Assembly: GCF_000215995.1 (NCBI RefSeq)
Contig: NC_015680.1
Coordinates: 1,501,160 to 1,565,159 of the forward strand
Length of the DNA stretch: 64,000 nt
Direction of reading: 5' to 3'
Source: Pyrococcus yayanosii CH1
GTDB taxonomy: Archaea > Methanobacteriota_B > Thermococci > Thermococcales > Thermococcaceae
How positions within the stretch are numbered: position 1 is the stretch's first letter; each line of letters starts with the position of its first letter. Below, piece after piece: positions 3,581-47,025 of the stretch. The notes under the pieces were generated by a model that was not told the DNA's origin, did not search any database, and worked only from the letters and a program-made list of their open reading frames with translations. The translations under genes were made by a program, and so were the position numbers.

Positions 3581-4384
3581 ATGCGGTCCCCCCGATGGAA
3601 GGACGGAAGACTTGGCCTGCCCATAATGGAAGCCGTTAGGCTATTTCCTGAGCTTGGTAGATACCTCGACGAGAGAGGAAGGCTTGATTTCTCAAATCGG
3701 GAGGCGCGCATCCTTTATAACAAAGCGGTGGCTAAGGCCCTCTTCGGCCTCGACATCGAGTATCATCCCCGGGGCCTTGTGACCCCTCCAATCTCGCGCT
3801 ACATCTTCCTGAAGATATTCCTACGGGGTGGCGAGAAGGTTCTGGAAATCGGCACTGGCCACACGGCGATGATGGCGTTGATGGCAGAGAAGCTCTTCAA
3901 CTGCATCGTTACCGCCACGGAGCTCGACGACGAGTTCTTCGCCTACGCTAAGCTCAACGTGGAAAGGAACAACGCGAAGGTGAGACTCATAAAGAGCAAC
4001 GGCGGGATAATCAGGGGCGTCGTGCCTCCAGAAACCTTTGACGTAATATTCTCTGCCCCTCCCTACTATGAGAGACATGTAAGGGGCGTCCTCACGGAGA
4101 GGGAAGCCGTTGGTGGCGGGAGGTTCGGGGAAGCATTCTCCATTAAACTCTTGGAGGAAGCTGTGGACTACCTGAGGCCGGGAGGTAAGGTGGCCCTATT
4201 TCTCCCAGATAAGGGCCCGCTAATAGAGGCGGTGAAAGAGAAGGGAAAGGAGTTGGGCTATGAGATAAGGGATATCAGATTTAAGGTAGGAACGAGGTGG
4301 AGGCATGCCCTCATAGGGACTCGGGCCGTGGGCGTTTCCTCACCGCTCGGTGGAGGTGCTCTCTCTTCATCGTCCCTCGATTAG
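3581..4384 (+). CDS. Class I SAM-dependent methyltransferase, N6-adenine type
   Basis: This 267-residue protein has a Rossmann methyltransferase core. Motif I is VLEIGTGHTA, followed by an acidic TATELDD loop, and motif IV is SAPPYYE, the (N/D/S)PP(Y/F) form typical of N6-adenine or related amino methyltransferases. It resembles RlmF/METTL16-type RNA methyltransferases, but the RNA target is unknown. The start at 3581 lies 38 bases after the M20 gene; the open frame extends upstream without a good start. The last 18 bases overlap the 3' end of the convergent CBS gene, so the Ser-rich C-terminus may be loosely constrained. Confidence 0.75.
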   Translation: MRSPRWKDGRLGLPIMEAVRLFPELGRYLDERGRLDFSNREARILYNKAVAKALFGLDIEYHPRGLVTPPISRYIFLKIFLRGGEKVLEIGTGHTAMMALMAEKLFNCIVTATELDDEFFAYAKLNVERNNAKVRLIKSNGGIIRGVVPPETFDVIFSAPPYYERHVRGVLTEREAVGGGRFGEAFSIKLLEEAVDYLRPGGKVALFLPDKGPLIEAVKEKGKELGYEIRDIRFKVGTRWRHALIGTRAVGVSSPLGGGALSSSSLD

Positions 4385-4900
4385 GTCCTTACAGCTCTCG
4401 CAGACCCACATCTCCCTGCCTTCATATATGACCTTAAAGAGGGCCCCGTACTGACCGCAGAACTCGCACATTCCGTAAACTTCGGTGTCCGGTGTGTACT
4501 CTTCTTCCTCATTGTTCTGAGATGCAATTGCCGAGAGGAGGTCTGTAGCGGTAACGAACCCTATGGGCTTTCCAAACTTCGTAACGAGGATCCTCCTGAC
4601 GCCCTTTTCTATCATGACCTCTATGGCTTCTTGAACATCATAGTCATACTCTATCTTAACGGGGGTCTTTGTCATTATCTCCTCTACCTTGATGGCCTTC
4701 GGATCTTTGCCCTTCGCGACGACCTTGTCTAGAATGTCCCTCTCCGTAACTATCCCGAGTATCTCATCCCCCTTCATGACAACGGCGCTGCCGACTTTGT
4801 TTCTCGAGAGAACCCTCGCAACCTTGTGGACCGTGTCGTCTGGACGAACGACCACAGCTTTCCTCTTGACGATCTGCTCCACTAGTATCTTTGTCGCCAT
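4367..4900 (-). CDS. CBS-domain pair protein with C-terminal zinc ribbon
   Basis: This 177-residue protein starts MATKILVEQIVKRKAVVV and holds two CBS domains (about residues 7-65 and 75-135). Each ends in the usual G-(I/F)-VT-x-x-D pattern (GIVTERDIL, GFVTATDLL). A C-terminal treble-clef or ribbon follows, with CEFCGQYG and CESCKDLI supplying four cysteines. Such proteins sense adenine nucleotides or SAM in the cytoplasm. The longer open frame upstream of 4900 covers the divergent promoter and is not part of the gene. Its neighbour on the other side is the PAPS-reductase-like gene, transcribed divergently. Confidence 0.85.
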   Translation of the reverse strand: MATKILVEQIVKRKAVVVRPDDTVHKVARVLSRNKVGSAVVMKGDEILGIVTERDILDKVVAKGKDPKAIKVEEIMTKTPVKIEYDYDVQEAIEVMIEKGVRRILVTKFGKPIGFVTATDLLSAIASQNNEEEEYTPDTEVYGMCEFCGQYGALFKVIYEGREMWVCESCKDLIEGR

Positions 4901-5002
4901 GCCTATCCCTCCGCTCAGAACGTGATGGGAGGAGTAATTTAAAAACATTTTGGGACGGCAAAGTTTAATAGCACCTCTTCTAAAGCTCCTCCCGGTGATG
5001 AT

Positions 5003-6901
5003 GTGAGGAGAGGTCCCGTTTTCCTTGGAAGGTCCTACGTTTACTGGTGCGAGAGGTGCAACGTCCCGCTCATCCAGGAAAGATGCGACGTTCACGGGGA
5101 GGAGGGTGTCTTCAGGATAGAGGTCACACCCCCGGGGGATTTGAGGTTCGCCTTTGAGAGAGACCTAGCGTTGATTCGGAGGGTCTTCTTGGAGCACTAT
5201 GGGGTCGATGTTGGGGAGCTATTTGAGGGGAAGATCGTTCTCCTGAACAAGATTCCGGGGGAAGATGATGCCTATGAAATAATCTTCGACGGCTTCATAT
5301 TTGGTATCATAAAGTTCGATCCAAAGGAGCTGAGATGGAAGCCGGGACTCAAGCTTGAAGGTGCTAAGCTGCTTTGGGAGCGCTTCGGGAAGGAAATGAG
5401 AAAGTGGGTGATAATCGATGAGGGTGCTATAGAGCCCGTCAGGAACGGAGCCAACGTCCTTCCCATTGGCATCCTCGAGGCCGAGGAGAGCATAAAGGTG
5501 GGGGATGAGGTTATAATAGTTGGGGGCAACGAGGTCGTAGGTGTTGGGATAGCCAAGAAGGATTACGCCCAGCTAATGGCCGGCGAGAAGGGGACCGGAA
5601 TAAAGGTTAAGAGGAAGGTCGGCGGGGGCGGGAGGTGTCTCAGCGGCAGAAGAGCTTCCATCGAAGACGTTATCAAGGCGAACCTCTCTGGAATAGAGGA
5701 GAAGGTAAAGGAAGCCAGGGAGTTCATGCGTAGGATCGCCGAGAGGTTCGGGCTTCCGGTGGCGGTGGCCTTCTCGGGCGGGAAGGATAGCCTTGCCGTT
5801 CTAGGTCTCGCTCTCGAGGAGTTTGGAAAAGGCTTCGCCGTTTTCTTCAACAACACGGGCATAGAGTTTCCAGAAACCATCGAGTACGTTGATGAGATCC
5901 GGAGGGAGCTGGAGCCGAGAGGAATAAGGTTTGTCGTGGCGGACGCGGGTGACGCCTTCTGGAGGGCACTGCACGTCTTCTCGCCGCCGGGTATGGACTA
6001 CAGGTGGTGCTGCAAGGTAACGAAGCTTGGTCCCATAACGCTTGCCATAAAGGAGCACTTTCCCCAGGGCGTCCTCATGTTCGTGGGCCAGAGGAAGTAC
6101 GAAAGTTTCAAGAGGTTTAAGCAGGGTCGCGTCTGGAGGAACAAATGGGTTCCCAACGAAATCGGGGCGTCACCGATATTCCACTGGAACGCCCTTGAGG
6201 TATGGCTCTACATCTTCAGCCGAGGCCTCAAGTTCAACCAGCTCTACAAGAAGGGCCTCGACAGGATAGGATGCTTCCTCTGCCCGAGCCAGTCCTTGGC
6301 CGAGATGCACAGGCTGAGGGAGGAGAAGCCCGAGCTATGGGCGAAATGGGAACGGGAACTGGAGAGGTGGAGGAGGCGCTTTAACCTTCCGAGGGAGTGG
6401 ATAACCTACGGCTTCTGGAGATGGAGGAGACTTGGTGGGAGGGAGAAAAAGCTTGCTGAAGCACTTGGTCTTGACATCCCGGCGGAACGCTTCTGGGAGC
6501 CCGTGAGGGCCGAGATACGGGAGGAGGAAGGAAGATTCGTCGTCAGGTTCAACACCGTGATAAACGAGGGGCGGATACTAGAGGTCGCGCCAATCTTGGG
6601 GGAGGTCTTCGAGGGAGGGAGGCTCATAAGGGCCGGTTCCGTCGAGCTCTATCCCGGAACGAACGTTGCAATTGCCCCGACACACGAGGAGGCCGTCCGG
6701 ACATATTATCTTGTGAAAAGGGCCTACGAGTGCGTTGGGTGTGGTGTGTGCGTCGGGAAGTGCCCTACAGGGGCCATAGGGATAGATCCTAGGCGTAAAA
6801 AGATACTCGTGGATCCGGGGCTTTGCACCCACTGCGGGGAGTGTATGGAGGTTTGCCCGCTCCTCAAGATAAAGAACCCTGAGGAGGGGAGCCAACTCTA
6901 A
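5003..6901 (+). CDS. PAPS reductase-like PP-loop protein with PUA and 4Fe-4S domains
   Basis: This 632-residue fusion has four parts: an N-terminal zinc ribbon (CERCNVP...CDVHG), a PUA-like domain around residues 145-205, a PP-loop ATP pyrophosphatase with AFSGGKDSLAVLGLA near residue 250, and a C-terminal two-cluster ferredoxin (CVGCGVCVGKCP and CTHCGECMEVCP). A Cys pair (RWCCK) and CFLCPSQ in the middle resemble the adenylyl-sulfate or thiolation active-site region. The family is annotated as phosphoadenosine phosphosulfate reductase, but the PUA domain argues for an RNA-linked sulfur or redox reaction. It starts with GTG behind GGTGAT. Confidence 0.8.
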   Translation: MRRGPVFLGRSYVYWCERCNVPLIQERCDVHGEEGVFRIEVTPPGDLRFAFERDLALIRRVFLEHYGVDVGELFEGKIVLLNKIPGEDDAYEIIFDGFIFGIIKFDPKELRWKPGLKLEGAKLLWERFGKEMRKWVIIDEGAIEPVRNGANVLPIGILEAEESIKVGDEVIIVGGNEVVGVGIAKKDYAQLMAGEKGTGIKVKRKVGGGGRCLSGRRASIEDVIKANLSGIEEKVKEAREFMRRIAERFGLPVAVAFSGGKDSLAVLGLALEEFGKGFAVFFNNTGIEFPETIEYVDEIRRELEPRGIRFVVADAGDAFWRALHVFSPPGMDYRWCCKVTKLGPITLAIKEHFPQGVLMFVGQRKYESFKRFKQGRVWRNKWVPNEIGASPIFHWNALEVWLYIFSRGLKFNQLYKKGLDRIGCFLCPSQSLAEMHRLREEKPELWAKWERELERWRRRFNLPREWITYGFWRWRRLGGREKKLAEALGLDIPAERFWEPVRAEIREEEGRFVVRFNTVINEGRILEVAPILGEVFEGGRLIRAGSVELYPGTNVAIAPTHEEAVRTYYLVKRAYECVGCGVCVGKCPTGAIGIDPRRKKILVDPGLCTHCGECMEVCPLLKIKNPEEGSQL

Positions 6902-10886: not shown

Positions 10887-11480
10887 ATGAAGGTCTATCA
10901 CCTTTTCAGCGGAGGCAAGGATTCGTCGCTGGCAGCTTGGATACTAAGTCGGCTTGGCTACGAAGTTAAGCTTGTGACCGTGACCTTCGGTGTTCTTGAT
11001 GCGTGGAAGTATGCGAGAGAGACCGCGGAGAGTCTCGGCTTTGATCATGAGGTCATGGAACTCCCCAGAGGAATGCTCGAAAGGGCCGCCGCCATGTGCA
11101 TCGAGGATGGCAGGCCGGGAAGAGCAATCCAGTTCCTCCATGAAAGGGCTCTAGAAACTCTGGCCGCCAGAAGGGGTGTAGAGAGAATCAGCGACGGCAC
11201 GAGAAGAGATGATAGAGTTCCCTTCCTCGATCTGCCGAAAGCCCGCTCCCTCGAAGATAGATTCAACGTCGCCTACATAAGGCCCCTCCTCGGTCTCGGC
11301 CACAGGACGATAAGGGAGCTCGTTGAGAAATTATTCCTCGTTGAGATCCGGGAAAGCGAAGAGATTAAAAAGTCGGACTACGAGGTCGAACTCAGACACA
11401 TCCTCAGGGAGCTTGGTCATGATCCAGCCCGGATATTTCCCAAGCGGCACTTGCAGTCGAGGGTGCTGGGATGGAGATGA
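10887..11480 (+). CDS. PP-loop ATP pyrophosphatase-like protein
   Basis: This 197-residue protein opens with MKVYHLFSGGKDSSLAAW, the SGGxDS PP-loop of the adenine nucleotide alpha-hydrolase superfamily. Further parts include ISDGTRRDDRVPFLDLPKA, which resembles the substrate-adenylating region of ExsB or tRNA-thiolation relatives. The partner substrate is not recognisable. The ATG is probably leaderless, with CTAAAAGG about 25 bases upstream. Its stop codon is shared with the C box of a C/D sRNA candidate immediately downstream. Confidence 0.75.
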   Translation: MKVYHLFSGGKDSSLAAWILSRLGYEVKLVTVTFGVLDAWKYARETAESLGFDHEVMELPRGMLERAAAMCIEDGRPGRAIQFLHERALETLAARRGVERISDGTRRDDRVPFLDLPKARSLEDRFNVAYIRPLLGLGHRTIRELVEKLFLVEIRESEEIKKSDYEVELRHILRELGHDPARIFPKRHLQSRVLGWR

Positions 11481-11528
11481 TGACCTCGGCAGGTTGCTGA
11501 GCGGTGATGACGATCTTGAGTGCTGATT
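11475..11528 (+). ncRNA. C/D box sRNA candidate overlapping a stop codon
   Basis: All four boxes are present in order: C box ATGATGA (11477-11483), D' box CTGA (11497-11500), C' box GTGATGA (11504-11510) and D box CTGA (11523-11526). The guide before D' is 13 nt and the guide before D is 12 nt, with a 3-nt gap between D' and C', as in archaeal box C/D RNAs that guide 2'-O-methylation. The C box includes the TGA stop of the PP-loop gene, and the D box ends against the 3' end of the convergent gene. No target was assigned. Confidence 0.85.
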
Positions 11529-13209
11529 AACGCACGAAGATTGCCAGCCTCCTTATCTTTATCTGAACGTTGTACTCCCTTGAAACTTCCCTTATGAGCC
11601 TTGTGATGATGTCCGTAGCATTCCTCTTTACTTCTTCACCCGAGACTCCTGAGAACACACCGAACAGCCCCTCCTCCTCAAGCTTCGCGAGGCTGACCTC
11701 TATCGAGACCTCCACAGCTGAGCCCTGTACATCCCACTTAAGCTTGACCCATCTGAGGGTTGCCCTAGGAATAGCTCTCAGGGCGTCCTGCATCTTTCTC
11801 CTAAGGACCTCTATGGCGGGTTCAACACGGCTCTTAAGCAGAATTTCCTCGCTTTCCTTTTTCTTGTCCTCCATCAGATAGGCGAGCTCATCTACTCCGG
11901 CCTCTTTCAGCAATTTTTCCACTTCCCTCTCAAGCTCCGCTTTCTTCTTGAGAACCTCTGAAACTTTGGAGGATACCTCTTCCTCTGCTGGTTTTTCGGC
12001 TCTCACGACTACCTTATTAACCCAGACGTACTTGTTGAGAATCTTGCTGAGCTCAGAGGCGTGCTTCTTTGCCAGAGAGGTTACGTAGGACTTAAGTTTG
12101 GCTTCGTCCATGTTAGGAGCTGTTCCCTCCAGGTAAACGTTTATCTCGTGCTCCCTGACACCCCCATAGACCTCTATTTCAAGCCTCTTCACCCGTATTC
12201 CGCTGTTTTCTATGTCCTTAAGAAGAGTCCTCGCAAACCCTGTAAAGTACGTCTTGAACTCGGGATCAACTGTCAGGAAGAGGTTGGGCCCCAGCTGTGT
12301 CGTCGGCGGCTTCTTGAGCCTCCATAGTTCCATGTCCTCCCTCTCTCTAGTTTCCATGGCCTCCACGCGCTCCCCAGCTATTACCTCGACCTTAAGGCTC
12401 TTCACGAGAGGCTTTAAGCCGGAAATCCTGCCTATCTTGGGCACGTGCTTGTTGAGTATGAACATGGCCTTTCTCTTTGTTATCTCAGCCTTCTTCTCAT
12501 CCTCAATTATAATGCCAAAGGTTCCCGTTATATTCACGATACCCGTCCCTATCTCGCCCCTCATCTCGACTCGCTCAACTTTAGCTTCAAGGTCCTCTAT
12601 CTCCCCCTTTGTGAGCCTGATGTATTCCTTGAAGGCTTCCTCAATCTTGGGTTTCAGGGATTCATCTCCCGTAACCTCTATTATGACCTCGCCCCGTGGA
12701 ACCGGCTTGGGTTTAGGTTTTGTGGCTTTTCTCTGCCTCTCCTGCTTCCTTCTCTCTTCCTCTTCCGCAGCCCTCTCAGCTTCCGCCCTCTCTATGGCGG
12801 TATTTATCTTCTCCTTGGCTTCCCCGCCGAAGAGGTCCTGAAGAGGTACAGCGTGCGTCTTAGAGTATAGGCTCAAGTTCTCGGCGAGGGTTAGCTTGAA
12901 GGACAGGTCGTCGAGAGGGTAAACGTCTATAATGAGTGGGTTGTTTACAACCTCCGCGAGCTTTCTGAGAGCTTCGTCTCCCTCAATCCGTCTATTTTCA
13001 TCTACGAGCTCACACTCGGTGGCGAGAGCTCTCGATGAGTCTATGAGAAGCTCGAAGTAATATCTGCCTTTTTCATCCTTGGCGAAAACCCTCACGTAGG
13101 CTCCTCTGGCCTCAGAACTCTTCAGTACATCAAGAATTGCTTTCAACGCTTCCACTCCCGAGAGGCATACGAAATTCTCAAGCACTGGTTTAGCGTTCGT
13201 TAACTTCAT
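11527..13209 (-). CDS. Large charged protein of unknown function with coiled-coil segments
   Basis: This 560-residue protein has an N-terminal alpha/beta region (about 1-130) that loosely resembles DUF2226-type proteins. A Glu/Lys/Arg-rich linker (AERAAEEEERRKQERQRKA near residue 150) follows, then two or more similar alpha/beta repeats ending in positions such as GIVNITGTFGI and EINVYLEGTAPN, and a coiled coil around residues 425-460. I see no catalytic motif, signal peptide or membrane helix. The ATG at 13209 follows GGTGATGG; the frame opens at 13221. It faces the RCK-DHH gene across a divergent promoter containing CTATATATAG. Confidence 0.65.
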   Translation of the reverse strand: MKLTNAKPVLENFVCLSGVEALKAILDVLKSSEARGAYVRVFAKDEKGRYYFELLIDSSRALATECELVDENRRIEGDEALRKLAEVVNNPLIIDVYPLDDLSFKLTLAENLSLYSKTHAVPLQDLFGGEAKEKINTAIERAEAERAAEEEERRKQERQRKATKPKPKPVPRGEVIIEVTGDESLKPKIEEAFKEYIRLTKGEIEDLEAKVERVEMRGEIGTGIVNITGTFGIIIEDEKKAEITKRKAMFILNKHVPKIGRISGLKPLVKSLKVEVIAGERVEAMETREREDMELWRLKKPPTTQLGPNLFLTVDPEFKTYFTGFARTLLKDIENSGIRVKRLEIEVYGGVREHEINVYLEGTAPNMDEAKLKSYVTSLAKKHASELSKILNKYVWVNKVVVRAEKPAEEEVSSKVSEVLKKKAELEREVEKLLKEAGVDELAYLMEDKKKESEEILLKSRVEPAIEVLRRKMQDALRAIPRATLRWVKLKWDVQGSAVEVSIEVSLAKLEEEGLFGVFSGVSGEEVKRNATDIITRLIREVSREYNVQIKIRRLAIFVR

Positions 13210-13323
13210 TACCATCACCATTACCTATATATAGCTGACAAGTTACATTCGGAGAGGAGCGATGTTAAGCCACAGATAGATACATGTGGGCCAATATTTA
13301 AACATTATTGATGGGTGAAGGGC

Positions 13324-30471: not shown

Positions 30472-31170
30472 ATGGAGTACACGATACCGCTGCTCGCAGC
30501 CCTTGGCTACATCAGCTACAGAATGGGGGCCCTAAACCTCTGGGGTTCCCTTACGGCCGTCCTTCTCGGCTATGCAGTTTTGACACTTGGCGGTTTCTTA
30601 GTCTTCGGAGCCATGCTTGCCTTCCTAGTAATGGGAACTGCGGCCACTCGCTTTCGGGCTCGCGAGAAAATGGCTCGCGGCCTGCTCGATGAGGTTCAGG
30701 GGAGGGGAATGGGCAACGTCCTTGGCAACGGCCTTGGTCCTGTTCTCTTCCTGCTCCTTGAGCACGCCACTAGCGCCGACTATGGGTGGGCTGCCGTGTT
30801 CTCCGCCATAGCCACGGCAAACGCCGATACCCTCGCGAGCGAGATAGGTAAGGTGTTCGGGAGGAAGCCGAGGCTGATAACGAACCTTAGGCCCGCGAGG
30901 CCGGGGGAGGAGGGGGCCATCTCGCCCGAGGGAGAGCTCGCGGCTCTCCTGGGGGCACTCTCCATAGGTCTGTTCGCCCTTCCCCTGACGTCCCATGACG
31001 CCAGCATGCTGGTAGCCGTGACCCTTGGTGGGTTTGCCGGTGCGAACGTTGACAGTCTCATCGGGGCGGCCCTTGAGAAAAAGGGTTATATAGGGAATAA
31101 CGGGACGAACTTCCTCGCAACACTTGCAGGCGGCCTTGTTGGAATGGCTACATTCCTCCTCCTGGCGTGA
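30472..31170 (+). CDS. DUF92 integral membrane protein (VTE6-like)
   Basis: This 232-residue membrane protein has about six helices and the DUF92 signatures GRGMGNVLGNG, ANADTLASEIGKVFG and FAGANVDSLIGA. Plant VTE6 of this family is a phytyl-phosphate kinase; the archaeal role, perhaps with isoprenoid phosphates, is unproven. ATG 30472 follows AGGTGG with five bases between; a GTG at 30463 is in frame. Its TGA stop lies inside the C box of a C/D sRNA candidate. Confidence 0.85.
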   Translation: MEYTIPLLAALGYISYRMGALNLWGSLTAVLLGYAVLTLGGFLVFGAMLAFLVMGTAATRFRAREKMARGLLDEVQGRGMGNVLGNGLGPVLFLLLEHATSADYGWAAVFSAIATANADTLASEIGKVFGRKPRLITNLRPARPGEEGAISPEGELAALLGALSIGLFALPLTSHDASMLVAVTLGGFAGANVDSLIGAALEKKGYIGNNGTNFLATLAGGLVGMATFLLLA

Positions 31171-31216
31171 TGAAAAGGCGGATTGCCGAGCGGTGAGGAG
31201 GACCTTAGGGGCTGAC
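31167..31216 (+). ncRNA. C/D box sRNA candidate with possible 23S rRNA target
   Basis: Boxes in order are C GTGATGA (31167-31173), D' CCGA (31186-31189, one change from CTGA), C' GTGAGGA (31193-31199, one change) and D CTGA (31212-31215). Both guides are 12 nt. The guide before D, GGACCTTAGGGG, is complementary to CCCCUAAGGUCC, which resembles the conserved CUAAGGUCCC segment of 23S rRNA; the fifth-base rule would place the methyl on the U. The C box shares the DUF92 stop codon, and the D box ends just before the next gene's ribosome binding site. Confidence 0.75.
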
Positions 31217-45100: not shown

Positions 45101-46453
45101 ATGAGGGTTCTGTTGCTTGGCTTCGAGTATTTACCCGTTAAGGTTGGTGGACTGGCAGAGGCCCTTACGAGTCTTGCAAATGCTCTTGCCGAGCTCGGCC
45201 ATGAGGTCTTGGTGTTTACGCCGTCTCATGGGAGGTTTGCGGGACAGTCTCTTGGGGTTAAGGTGAGGGCTTTTGGAGAGATTGTTCCCCTAACGGTGCA
45301 TGAGGAAGGCGATAATCCTCGTGTCTTTAGGCTTGGTGGCGGTCTGCTTGACAGTGGGGACGTTTATGGGCCTGGGTGGGAGGGTCTGCTGAGAAAGGCG
45401 GTTCTCTTTGGAAAGGCGAGCGTGGCTCTGCTTAATGAGCTCTTAAAGGAGGAGGAGCTTCCAAATGTGGTCCATTTCCACGACTGGCATACAGTCTTTG
45501 CAGGGGCTCTGATAAAAAAGCACTTCCGTATTCCAGCTATCTTCACGATTCACAGGCTCAACAAGGCGAAGATTCCGGCCTATTATTTCCATGAGGCTGG
45601 TCTTCCAGAGTTGGCTCCCTATCCTGATATAGACCCGGAGCACGCTGGGGGCTATTTCGCGGACATAGTGACGACGGTGAGCAGGGGCTACCTCCTCGAC
45701 GAGTGGGGCTTCTTCAGGAACTTCGAGGGCAGGGTCACTTACGTATTCAACGGCATTGATTGCTCCTTCTGGAGCGAGGCTTGCCTCGAAGGGTCTAGGT
45801 GCGATAGGAAGCAGAGGATCCTTGAGAAGCTGGGCTTGGAGGATGGTGTAATGTTCATGTTTATAGGCCGCTTCGACAGGGGGCAGAAGGGGGTTGACGT
45901 CCTCCTAAGGGCCATAGAGATGCTTGCCGAGAGGCATCCGAGGGAGTTTCGGCAGATGAAGTTCATAATTATTGGGAAAGGAGACCCTGAGCTAGAGAAG
46001 TGGGCGAAGGTTCTAGCGGAGAGGTTTCCCAACGTGAAGACTATCACGGAAATGTTGTCGAGAGAGTTCGTCAGGGGGCTTTACGGAAGTGTCGATTTTG
46101 TAATTGTTCCCTCTTACTTCGAACCTTTTGGTCTCGTTCAGATGGAGGCCATGTGCCTCGGGGCAATACCCATAGGTTCGGCGGTGGGGGGAATAAGGGA
46201 CACCGTGATAACCCTTGACGATAACCCGGAGAGTGCGACGGGATTCCTTGTTCCACCAGGTAGTGTTGAAGCTTTGGTGGATGCAATCCTCCGGGCATTC
46301 AAGCTTTACGTGGAGAACCCATCTCTCATAGAAAAACTCAGGGAGAACGGGAAGAAGAGAGCGAAGGAGTTCACTTGGGAAAGGGCGGCTCGCCGCTACT
46401 TGAGGGCCTATAAAGGTAGTGTGGACAGGGCCTTTGAATTCATAGTTGAGTAG
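45101..46453 (+). CDS. glgA: Glycogen synthase (GT5)
   Basis: This 450-residue GT-B enzyme has the N-terminal sugar-nucleotide loop KVGGLAEALTSLANALAEL, HFHDWHTVFAGAL and VTTVSRGY, and the C-terminal FIGRFDRGQKGVDVLLRAI and YFEPFGLVQMEAM with the family's catalytic Glu. It lengthens alpha-1,4-glucan using ADP- or UDP-glucose. The ATG at 45101 follows GGGGGTAATC, with TTTTAAT about 35 bases before. It ties in with the alpha-glucan locus at 18-28 kb. Confidence 0.93.
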   Translation: MRVLLLGFEYLPVKVGGLAEALTSLANALAELGHEVLVFTPSHGRFAGQSLGVKVRAFGEIVPLTVHEEGDNPRVFRLGGGLLDSGDVYGPGWEGLLRKAVLFGKASVALLNELLKEEELPNVVHFHDWHTVFAGALIKKHFRIPAIFTIHRLNKAKIPAYYFHEAGLPELAPYPDIDPEHAGGYFADIVTTVSRGYLLDEWGFFRNFEGRVTYVFNGIDCSFWSEACLEGSRCDRKQRILEKLGLEDGVMFMFIGRFDRGQKGVDVLLRAIEMLAERHPREFRQMKFIIIGKGDPELEKWAKVLAERFPNVKTITEMLSREFVRGLYGSVDFVIVPSYFEPFGLVQMEAMCLGAIPIGSAVGGIRDTVITLDDNPESATGFLVPPGSVEALVDAILRAFKLYVENPSLIEKLRENGKKRAKEFTWERAARRYLRAYKGSVDRAFEFIVE

Positions 46454-46512
46454 TCAGCACCGGAGTATCCCCTCACCTCTCGGGAGCGGCCAAGCTCATC
46501 ATCCACTTTGGG

Positions 46513-46968
46513 CTACATTCCTTCCCCCTTAAAAAACTCTTCCAGGTACGTTGAAACAGCCTCGCCTTCTTCCTTTCGCACTCTCCACTTCTCATCTTCT
46601 ATGGTCTCTCTCAGCGTTGAAAATAACCTTTCATCGCCAAAAAGCCTTATGATGACTAGCGCTCTGAACCTCTCGAAGGCTCCGTGGGGTTCTGCTATGA
46701 GGATGCCTTTGGAGATGTGCAATCTTGTTGTCGCAACCTTTATGTAGGCTTCGTGCTCTATTCCACTTTCCCTCCAAAAGGCGTAAAACGTTAGGTGCCC
46801 ATCTTTCGCAAATATTTCAATCTCGGGGGGCAAGTGCTCTGAGTCTATAAGAGGATAGCGCGTATCCCCTATGAGAAGGTATGAAATACCCCTGCAGACG
46901 GCGAGCCTTAGGCCCTTGCAGAGGTCGTCCACGTAAGAGGCCACAACATATTGAGAGATCCCCTCCAT
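46513..46968 (-). CDS. Hypothetical protein
   Basis: This 151-residue protein starts MEGISQYVVASYVDDLCKGL and is an alpha/beta protein without membrane helices or catalytic signature. Its C-terminus is Glu/Lys-rich (RKEEGEAVSTYLEEFFKG). The ATG at 46968 follows AGGTGT. It lies between glgA, with which it is convergent, and an IS200/IS605-like end. I do not recognise the family. Confidence 0.65.
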   Translation of the reverse strand: MEGISQYVVASYVDDLCKGLRLAVCRGISYLLIGDTRYPLIDSEHLPPEIEIFAKDGHLTFYAFWRESGIEHEAYIKVATTRLHISKGILIAEPHGAFERFRALVIIRLFGDERLFSTLRETIEDEKWRVRKEEGEAVSTYLEEFFKGEGM

Positions 46969-47025
46969 ATCCAACACCTGGCCTTTATTAATAGTTCCTA
47001 GGTGGGGCAATTAAGTAATGTCTCG

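Follow-up and report, generated by a model that had tools for sequence, protein, structure and literature searches.

The window analyzed here is a 64,000-nucleotide (nt) stretch of Pyrococcus yayanosii CH1 DNA (contig NC_015680.1, positions 1,501,160 to 1,565,159), and positions 11475-11528 of its plus strand are well supported as a canonical archaeal C/D box small RNA (sRNA) by the boxes themselves, an Rfam match, conservation throughout the family, and a target of 10 base pairs (bp) in a transfer RNA (tRNA) with its base at D+5. Our overall reading, which the sequence comparisons make highly probable, is that this sRNA would guide C34 of tRNA-Leu(CAA), would use its D' guide as an anchor, and in Pyrococcus would be released from the messenger RNA (mRNA) of an upstream PP-loop protein gene that replaced its promoter. 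The placement of that gene's stop codon within the C box follows a layout already documented for archaeal C/D genes. Two modest surprises stand out: the second guide, too, matches tRNA-Leu(CAA), and the sRNA has seemingly lost its own promoter. A comparison of about 70 genomes could capture the step from a guide RNA with a TATA-like promoter to the promoterless tail of a protein gene.

The C/D box sRNA and its D guide

The sRNA has a RUGAUGA C box and a CUGA D box that enclose a D' and a C' box, arranged as follows:

11477-11483, plus strand: C box ATGATGA; read directly, invariant in the eight aligned Pyrococcus members
11484-11496, plus strand: D' guide CCTCGGCAGGTTG, 13 nt; its core, CTCGGCA, is complementary to tRNA-Leu nt 9-15
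11497-11500, plus strand: D' box CTGA; read directly, invariant in the Pyrococcus alignment
11504-11510, plus strand: C' box GTGATGA; read directly and recovered by the family-wide pattern search
11511-11522, plus strand: D guide CGATCTTGAGTG, 12 nt; pairs over 10 bp with tRNA-Leu(CAA) at the anticodon arm, D+5 base C34
11523-11526, plus strand: D box CTGA; read directly

Direct reading confirmed the four boxes and the 13- and 12-nt guides described by the first-pass annotation, whose first target (CAACCUGCCGAG) omits the last base of the 13-nt D' guide. Both guides agree with the norm of about 10-12 nt for C/D sRNAs, the D' guide being one over (it is 12 nt long in other Pyrococcus). A strict four-box pattern has a single match in the window and none in 300 dinucleotide shuffles. 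The Rfam family snoPyro_CD (RF00095), which the sRNA resembles in box layout, length, and spacing, matches 11473-11529 with 42.1 bits; the P. yayanosii copy, with its 13-nt D' guide, falls below the curated cut-off of 45 bits, which seven Pyrococcus orthologues pass (46.0-56.8 bits).

The sRNA is orthologous across Thermococcaceae. Its C'-guide-D half was found by pattern search in 90 of 94 Thermococcaceae genomes, and the reversed control gave 0 matches. In the alignment of eight Pyrococcus members, mean pairwise identity is 90% within the sRNA and 66% in the 100 nt on each side; the boxes and guides are kept, with the C and D' boxes invariant, and the 3-nt spacer stands at 29%. In close relatives, where loss of the boxes had been named in advance as a ground for abandoning the sRNA, the boxes are kept. 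The reading that the boxes arose by chance where a gene ends, with no RNA made from them, has a negligible likelihood: the P. yayanosii copy does score slightly under the Rfam cut-off, but the empty shuffles, the occurrence throughout Thermococcaceae, and the orthologues above the cut-off argue against it.

Targets were sought among the ribosomal RNA (rRNA) and tRNA genes of the sRNA's own genome. Only tRNA-Leu(CAA) forms 10 contiguous Watson-Crick pairs with the D guide; the pairing lies in its anticodon arm and places C34 at D+5. The next-best tRNAs, Leu(UAA) and one Ser, each pair with one G-U. rRNA targets were rejected for either guide, as the best matches are short (7 nt to 16S and 23S for the D' guide; at most 7 nt for the D guide) and at chance level. 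The search of both guides under the D+5 rule, proposed by the earlier annotation, therefore yielded C34 of tRNA-Leu(CAA) for the D guide and no convincing rRNA target for the D' guide. From this pairing, the D guide most likely directs 2'-O-methylation of C34, the wobble base reading UUG, the methylation itself being predicted. A Pyrococcus sRNA aimed at this base had already been predicted (PMC7994747; PMC7668247), and the sRNA at 11475-11528 is almost surely its orthologue. A dedicated D guide for Leu(UAA), sought with the same pattern, was dropped, as the pattern is present in just one of nine Pyrococcus members.

The D' guide and a possible second site on tRNA-Leu(CAA)

The D' core, CUCGGCA, can base-pair with tRNA-Leu(CAA) at nt 9-15, in the D arm; three other Leu tRNAs offer the same complement, and Leu(UAA) does not. 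The core is kept in 66 of 70 loci; the remaining four have CCAGGC, complementary to the adjoining segment of that tRNA (from nt 14 or 15). Guides shuffled without a change of composition reach such a match about 2-4% of the time (0.02-0.04 for the majority of guides and less where the match is 8-9 nt), so one match alone is weak. However, the match persists through 31 guide variants as well as the switch from CTCGGCA to CCAGGC, and this persistence, together with the shift to a neighboring site, is suggestive of real D' pairing. The sources consulted on the Pyrococcus C34 sRNA say nothing of a D-arm match by its other guide.

The position that this guide would address is less constant. Its D+5 base is nt 10 in 53 of the 70 loci, nt 9 in 12, nt 14-15 in four, and nt 8 in the window copy. 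The register of the guide to the D' box thus varies by lineage, while its offset from the C box is constant; a drifting D'-box register combined with a fixed C-box offset suggests that the D' guide serves mainly as a second anchor. A further possibility, somewhat less likely than not, is that this trans-acting sRNA clamps one tRNA twice, with the D guide for C34 and a D' anchor that would add selectivity for Leu(CAA) over Leu(UAA), the pairing being under selection even though it has moved. A comparable case is sR50 of the tRNA-Trp intron, which likewise guides C34 and contacts one tRNA with both guides; sR50, however, is an intron of its own target, whereas the sRNA at 11475-11528 acts in trans.

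Alternatively, the D' guide could be a true second methylation guide for U8, U9, or G10 of several tRNA-Leu isoacceptors. Such a role would account for the sharing of UGCCGAG (nt 9-15) by four tRNA-Leu genes of the same genome and for the predominance of nt 10 at D+5, yet it appears rather unlikely given the shifts of D+5 to nt 9, nt 8, and nt 14-15 and the lack of pairing beside the D' box in most guides. It is unlikely as well that the D' guide is an orphan, or directed at rRNA, with a tRNA match that arose by chance and was retained by descent. Orphan guides are common (PMC7994747), and the 7-nt matches in 16S and 23S do exist; these rRNA matches, however, differ among guide variants at chance level, whereas the tRNA match is kept through all of the variants and through the change of core. 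The D' guide also matches the tRNA gene L092, but in antisense, and this match was dropped.

Gene arrangement and promoter

The sRNA lies between two convergent genes:

10887-11480, plus strand: PP-loop protein gene, 197 amino acids (Pfam DUF7411; NCBIfam PRK14561), from its open reading frame (ORF) and a family search; putative host transcript of the sRNA
11527-13221, minus strand: convergent gene, 564 amino acids, from its ORF; in 58 of 70 loci a homologue follows the sRNA at a distance of 4-64 nt

No Pfam or NCBIfam family matched the convergent protein. The TGA stop of the PP-loop ORF (11478-11480) falls within the C box, so that the sRNA overlaps the 3' end of the upstream gene and contains its stop codon, as had been claimed; this is true in the window and in seven of the nine Pyrococcus members. 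In the other two, the PP-loop frame continues and stops at the D' or C' box, which indicates that a box always provides the PP-loop stop, though not always the C box. The D box indeed abuts the convergent gene, the minus-strand ORF ending at 11527 directly after it, and the 560 residues first given for that gene are close to the 564 found. Among archaeal C/D genes from six species, 25% extend over the 3' end of an ORF and contain its stop, which almost half of them have in the C box (Tripp 2017, via PMC7994747). The window itself holds another instance, sR43 (Rfam 63.7 bits, 4319-4375, minus strand), whose C box contains the stop (4367-4369) of the upstream minus-strand ORF 4367-5164. Taken together, the documented overlaps and this recurrence mark the arrangement as ordinary.

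The convergent neighbor is old, and the PP-loop gene stands upstream only in Pyrococcus (at the same junction in 9/9 genomes, against 0/61 of the other sRNA loci). Of the 61 copies in other genera, 53 have a TATA-like box that precedes the C box by about 25-30 nt, as do none of the nine in Pyrococcus, against a background of 2.4%; A+T content has a sharp peak at -29 to -25. From this difference, the Pyrococcus sRNA is probably trimmed from PP-loop read-through mRNA, and the processing from the mRNA tail proposed by the first-pass annotation becomes plausible. C/D genes lacking a promoter are documented: only about 20% of those in six archaeal species have a TATA-like motif upstream, and flanks can be changed without harm to the maturation of C/D sRNAs (Tripp 2017, via PMC7994747). 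The sRNA at 11475-11528, with no visible promoter in Pyrococcus, may be promoterless in the manner of the C/D genes that overlap a 3' ORF end (Tripp 2017, via PMC7994747); here, on the other hand, TATA-bearing relatives allow the change from an own promoter to a host gene to be inferred.

The additional proposal that the supply of the sRNA is meaningfully tied to the PP-loop gene is not supported, since the two adjoin only in Pyrococcus and the layout is common in archaea (PMC7994747). More generally, functional coupling, in which PP-loop expression would set the sRNA supply or a small ribonucleoprotein on the stop would regulate PP-loop translation, is improbable. While the junction is identical throughout Pyrococcus and no TATA-like box precedes it there, the arrangement is absent in every other genus, the stop has moved to other boxes in two species, and 3' overlaps were neutral or slightly negative in a reporter study (PMC7994747).

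According to the preferred reading, the ancestral sRNA would have had its own promoter and faced the convergent gene. In the Pyrococcus ancestor, the PP-loop gene would have been placed directly upstream, replacing the TATA-driven promoter, so that the sRNA lost its promoter and the PP-loop gene came to terminate at a TGA within a box motif. The sRNA would now be cut or trimmed from PP-loop read-through mRNA while protected by L7Ae, Nop5, and fibrillarin on its k-turns. Its D guide would then lead fibrillarin to methylate the 2'-OH of C34 in tRNA-Leu(CAA), while the D' guide would pair with nt 9-15 in the D arm of that tRNA, chiefly as an additional anchor. Several points weigh against this account. 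The D' pairing spans just 7 bp, and similar sRNAs from beyond Thermococcaceae mostly carry a D' guide that does not match the same tRNA. The list of TATA hexamers was loose and was partly extended after the alignment had been viewed. For P. furiosus, PMC7668247 gives C34 of tRNA-Leu(CAA) as a predicted site and reports 2'-O-methylated C34 (Cm34) in some tRNAs, but not clearly for Leu(CAA).

Occurrence in other archaea and other C/D sRNAs of the window

The exact C'-D guide-D pattern is found in at least 118 stretches, including those of Micrarchaeota, Nitrosopumilus-like Thaumarchaeota, Thermoplasmata, Heimdallarchaeota, and Diapherotrites (loci L211-L290). Of 30 tested genomes carrying the C'-guide-D pattern, 28 also show the corresponding anticodon arm in a tRNA-like match, and in an even sample from the phylum of one Nitrosopumilus genome the pattern occurs in 15 of 151. 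The string of C' box, Leu(CAA) C34 guide, and D box is, on these matches, a candidate pan-archaeal guide, which could be one old RNA or a repeated invention on a conserved tRNA arm. A Nitrosopumilus-like copy also occurs in a record labeled Proteobacteria (L273), probably a contig assigned to the wrong bin.

Contact with two sites of the tRNA was rejected as an archaea-wide rule, being clear in about three Thermoplasmata-like cases among 28 genomes from outside Thermococcaceae. Among loci L338-L345, L221, L236, and L249, some Thermoplasmata-like genomes have a Leu(CAA) sRNA whose D' guide, CGAACCTTT, can pair with the variable arm of that tRNA at 9-11 positions; close relatives with CGAACCCTTT lack this pairing.

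Elsewhere in the window, sR32 (Rfam 52 bits, 46452-46506, minus strand) begins about 7 nt past the end of the minus-strand ORF frame 46513-47010. A looser C/D-like string, GTGATGA-CCGA-GTGAGGA-CTGA, lies at 31167-31215 on the plus strand; it has no Rfam match over the cut-off and is a possible C/D sRNA.
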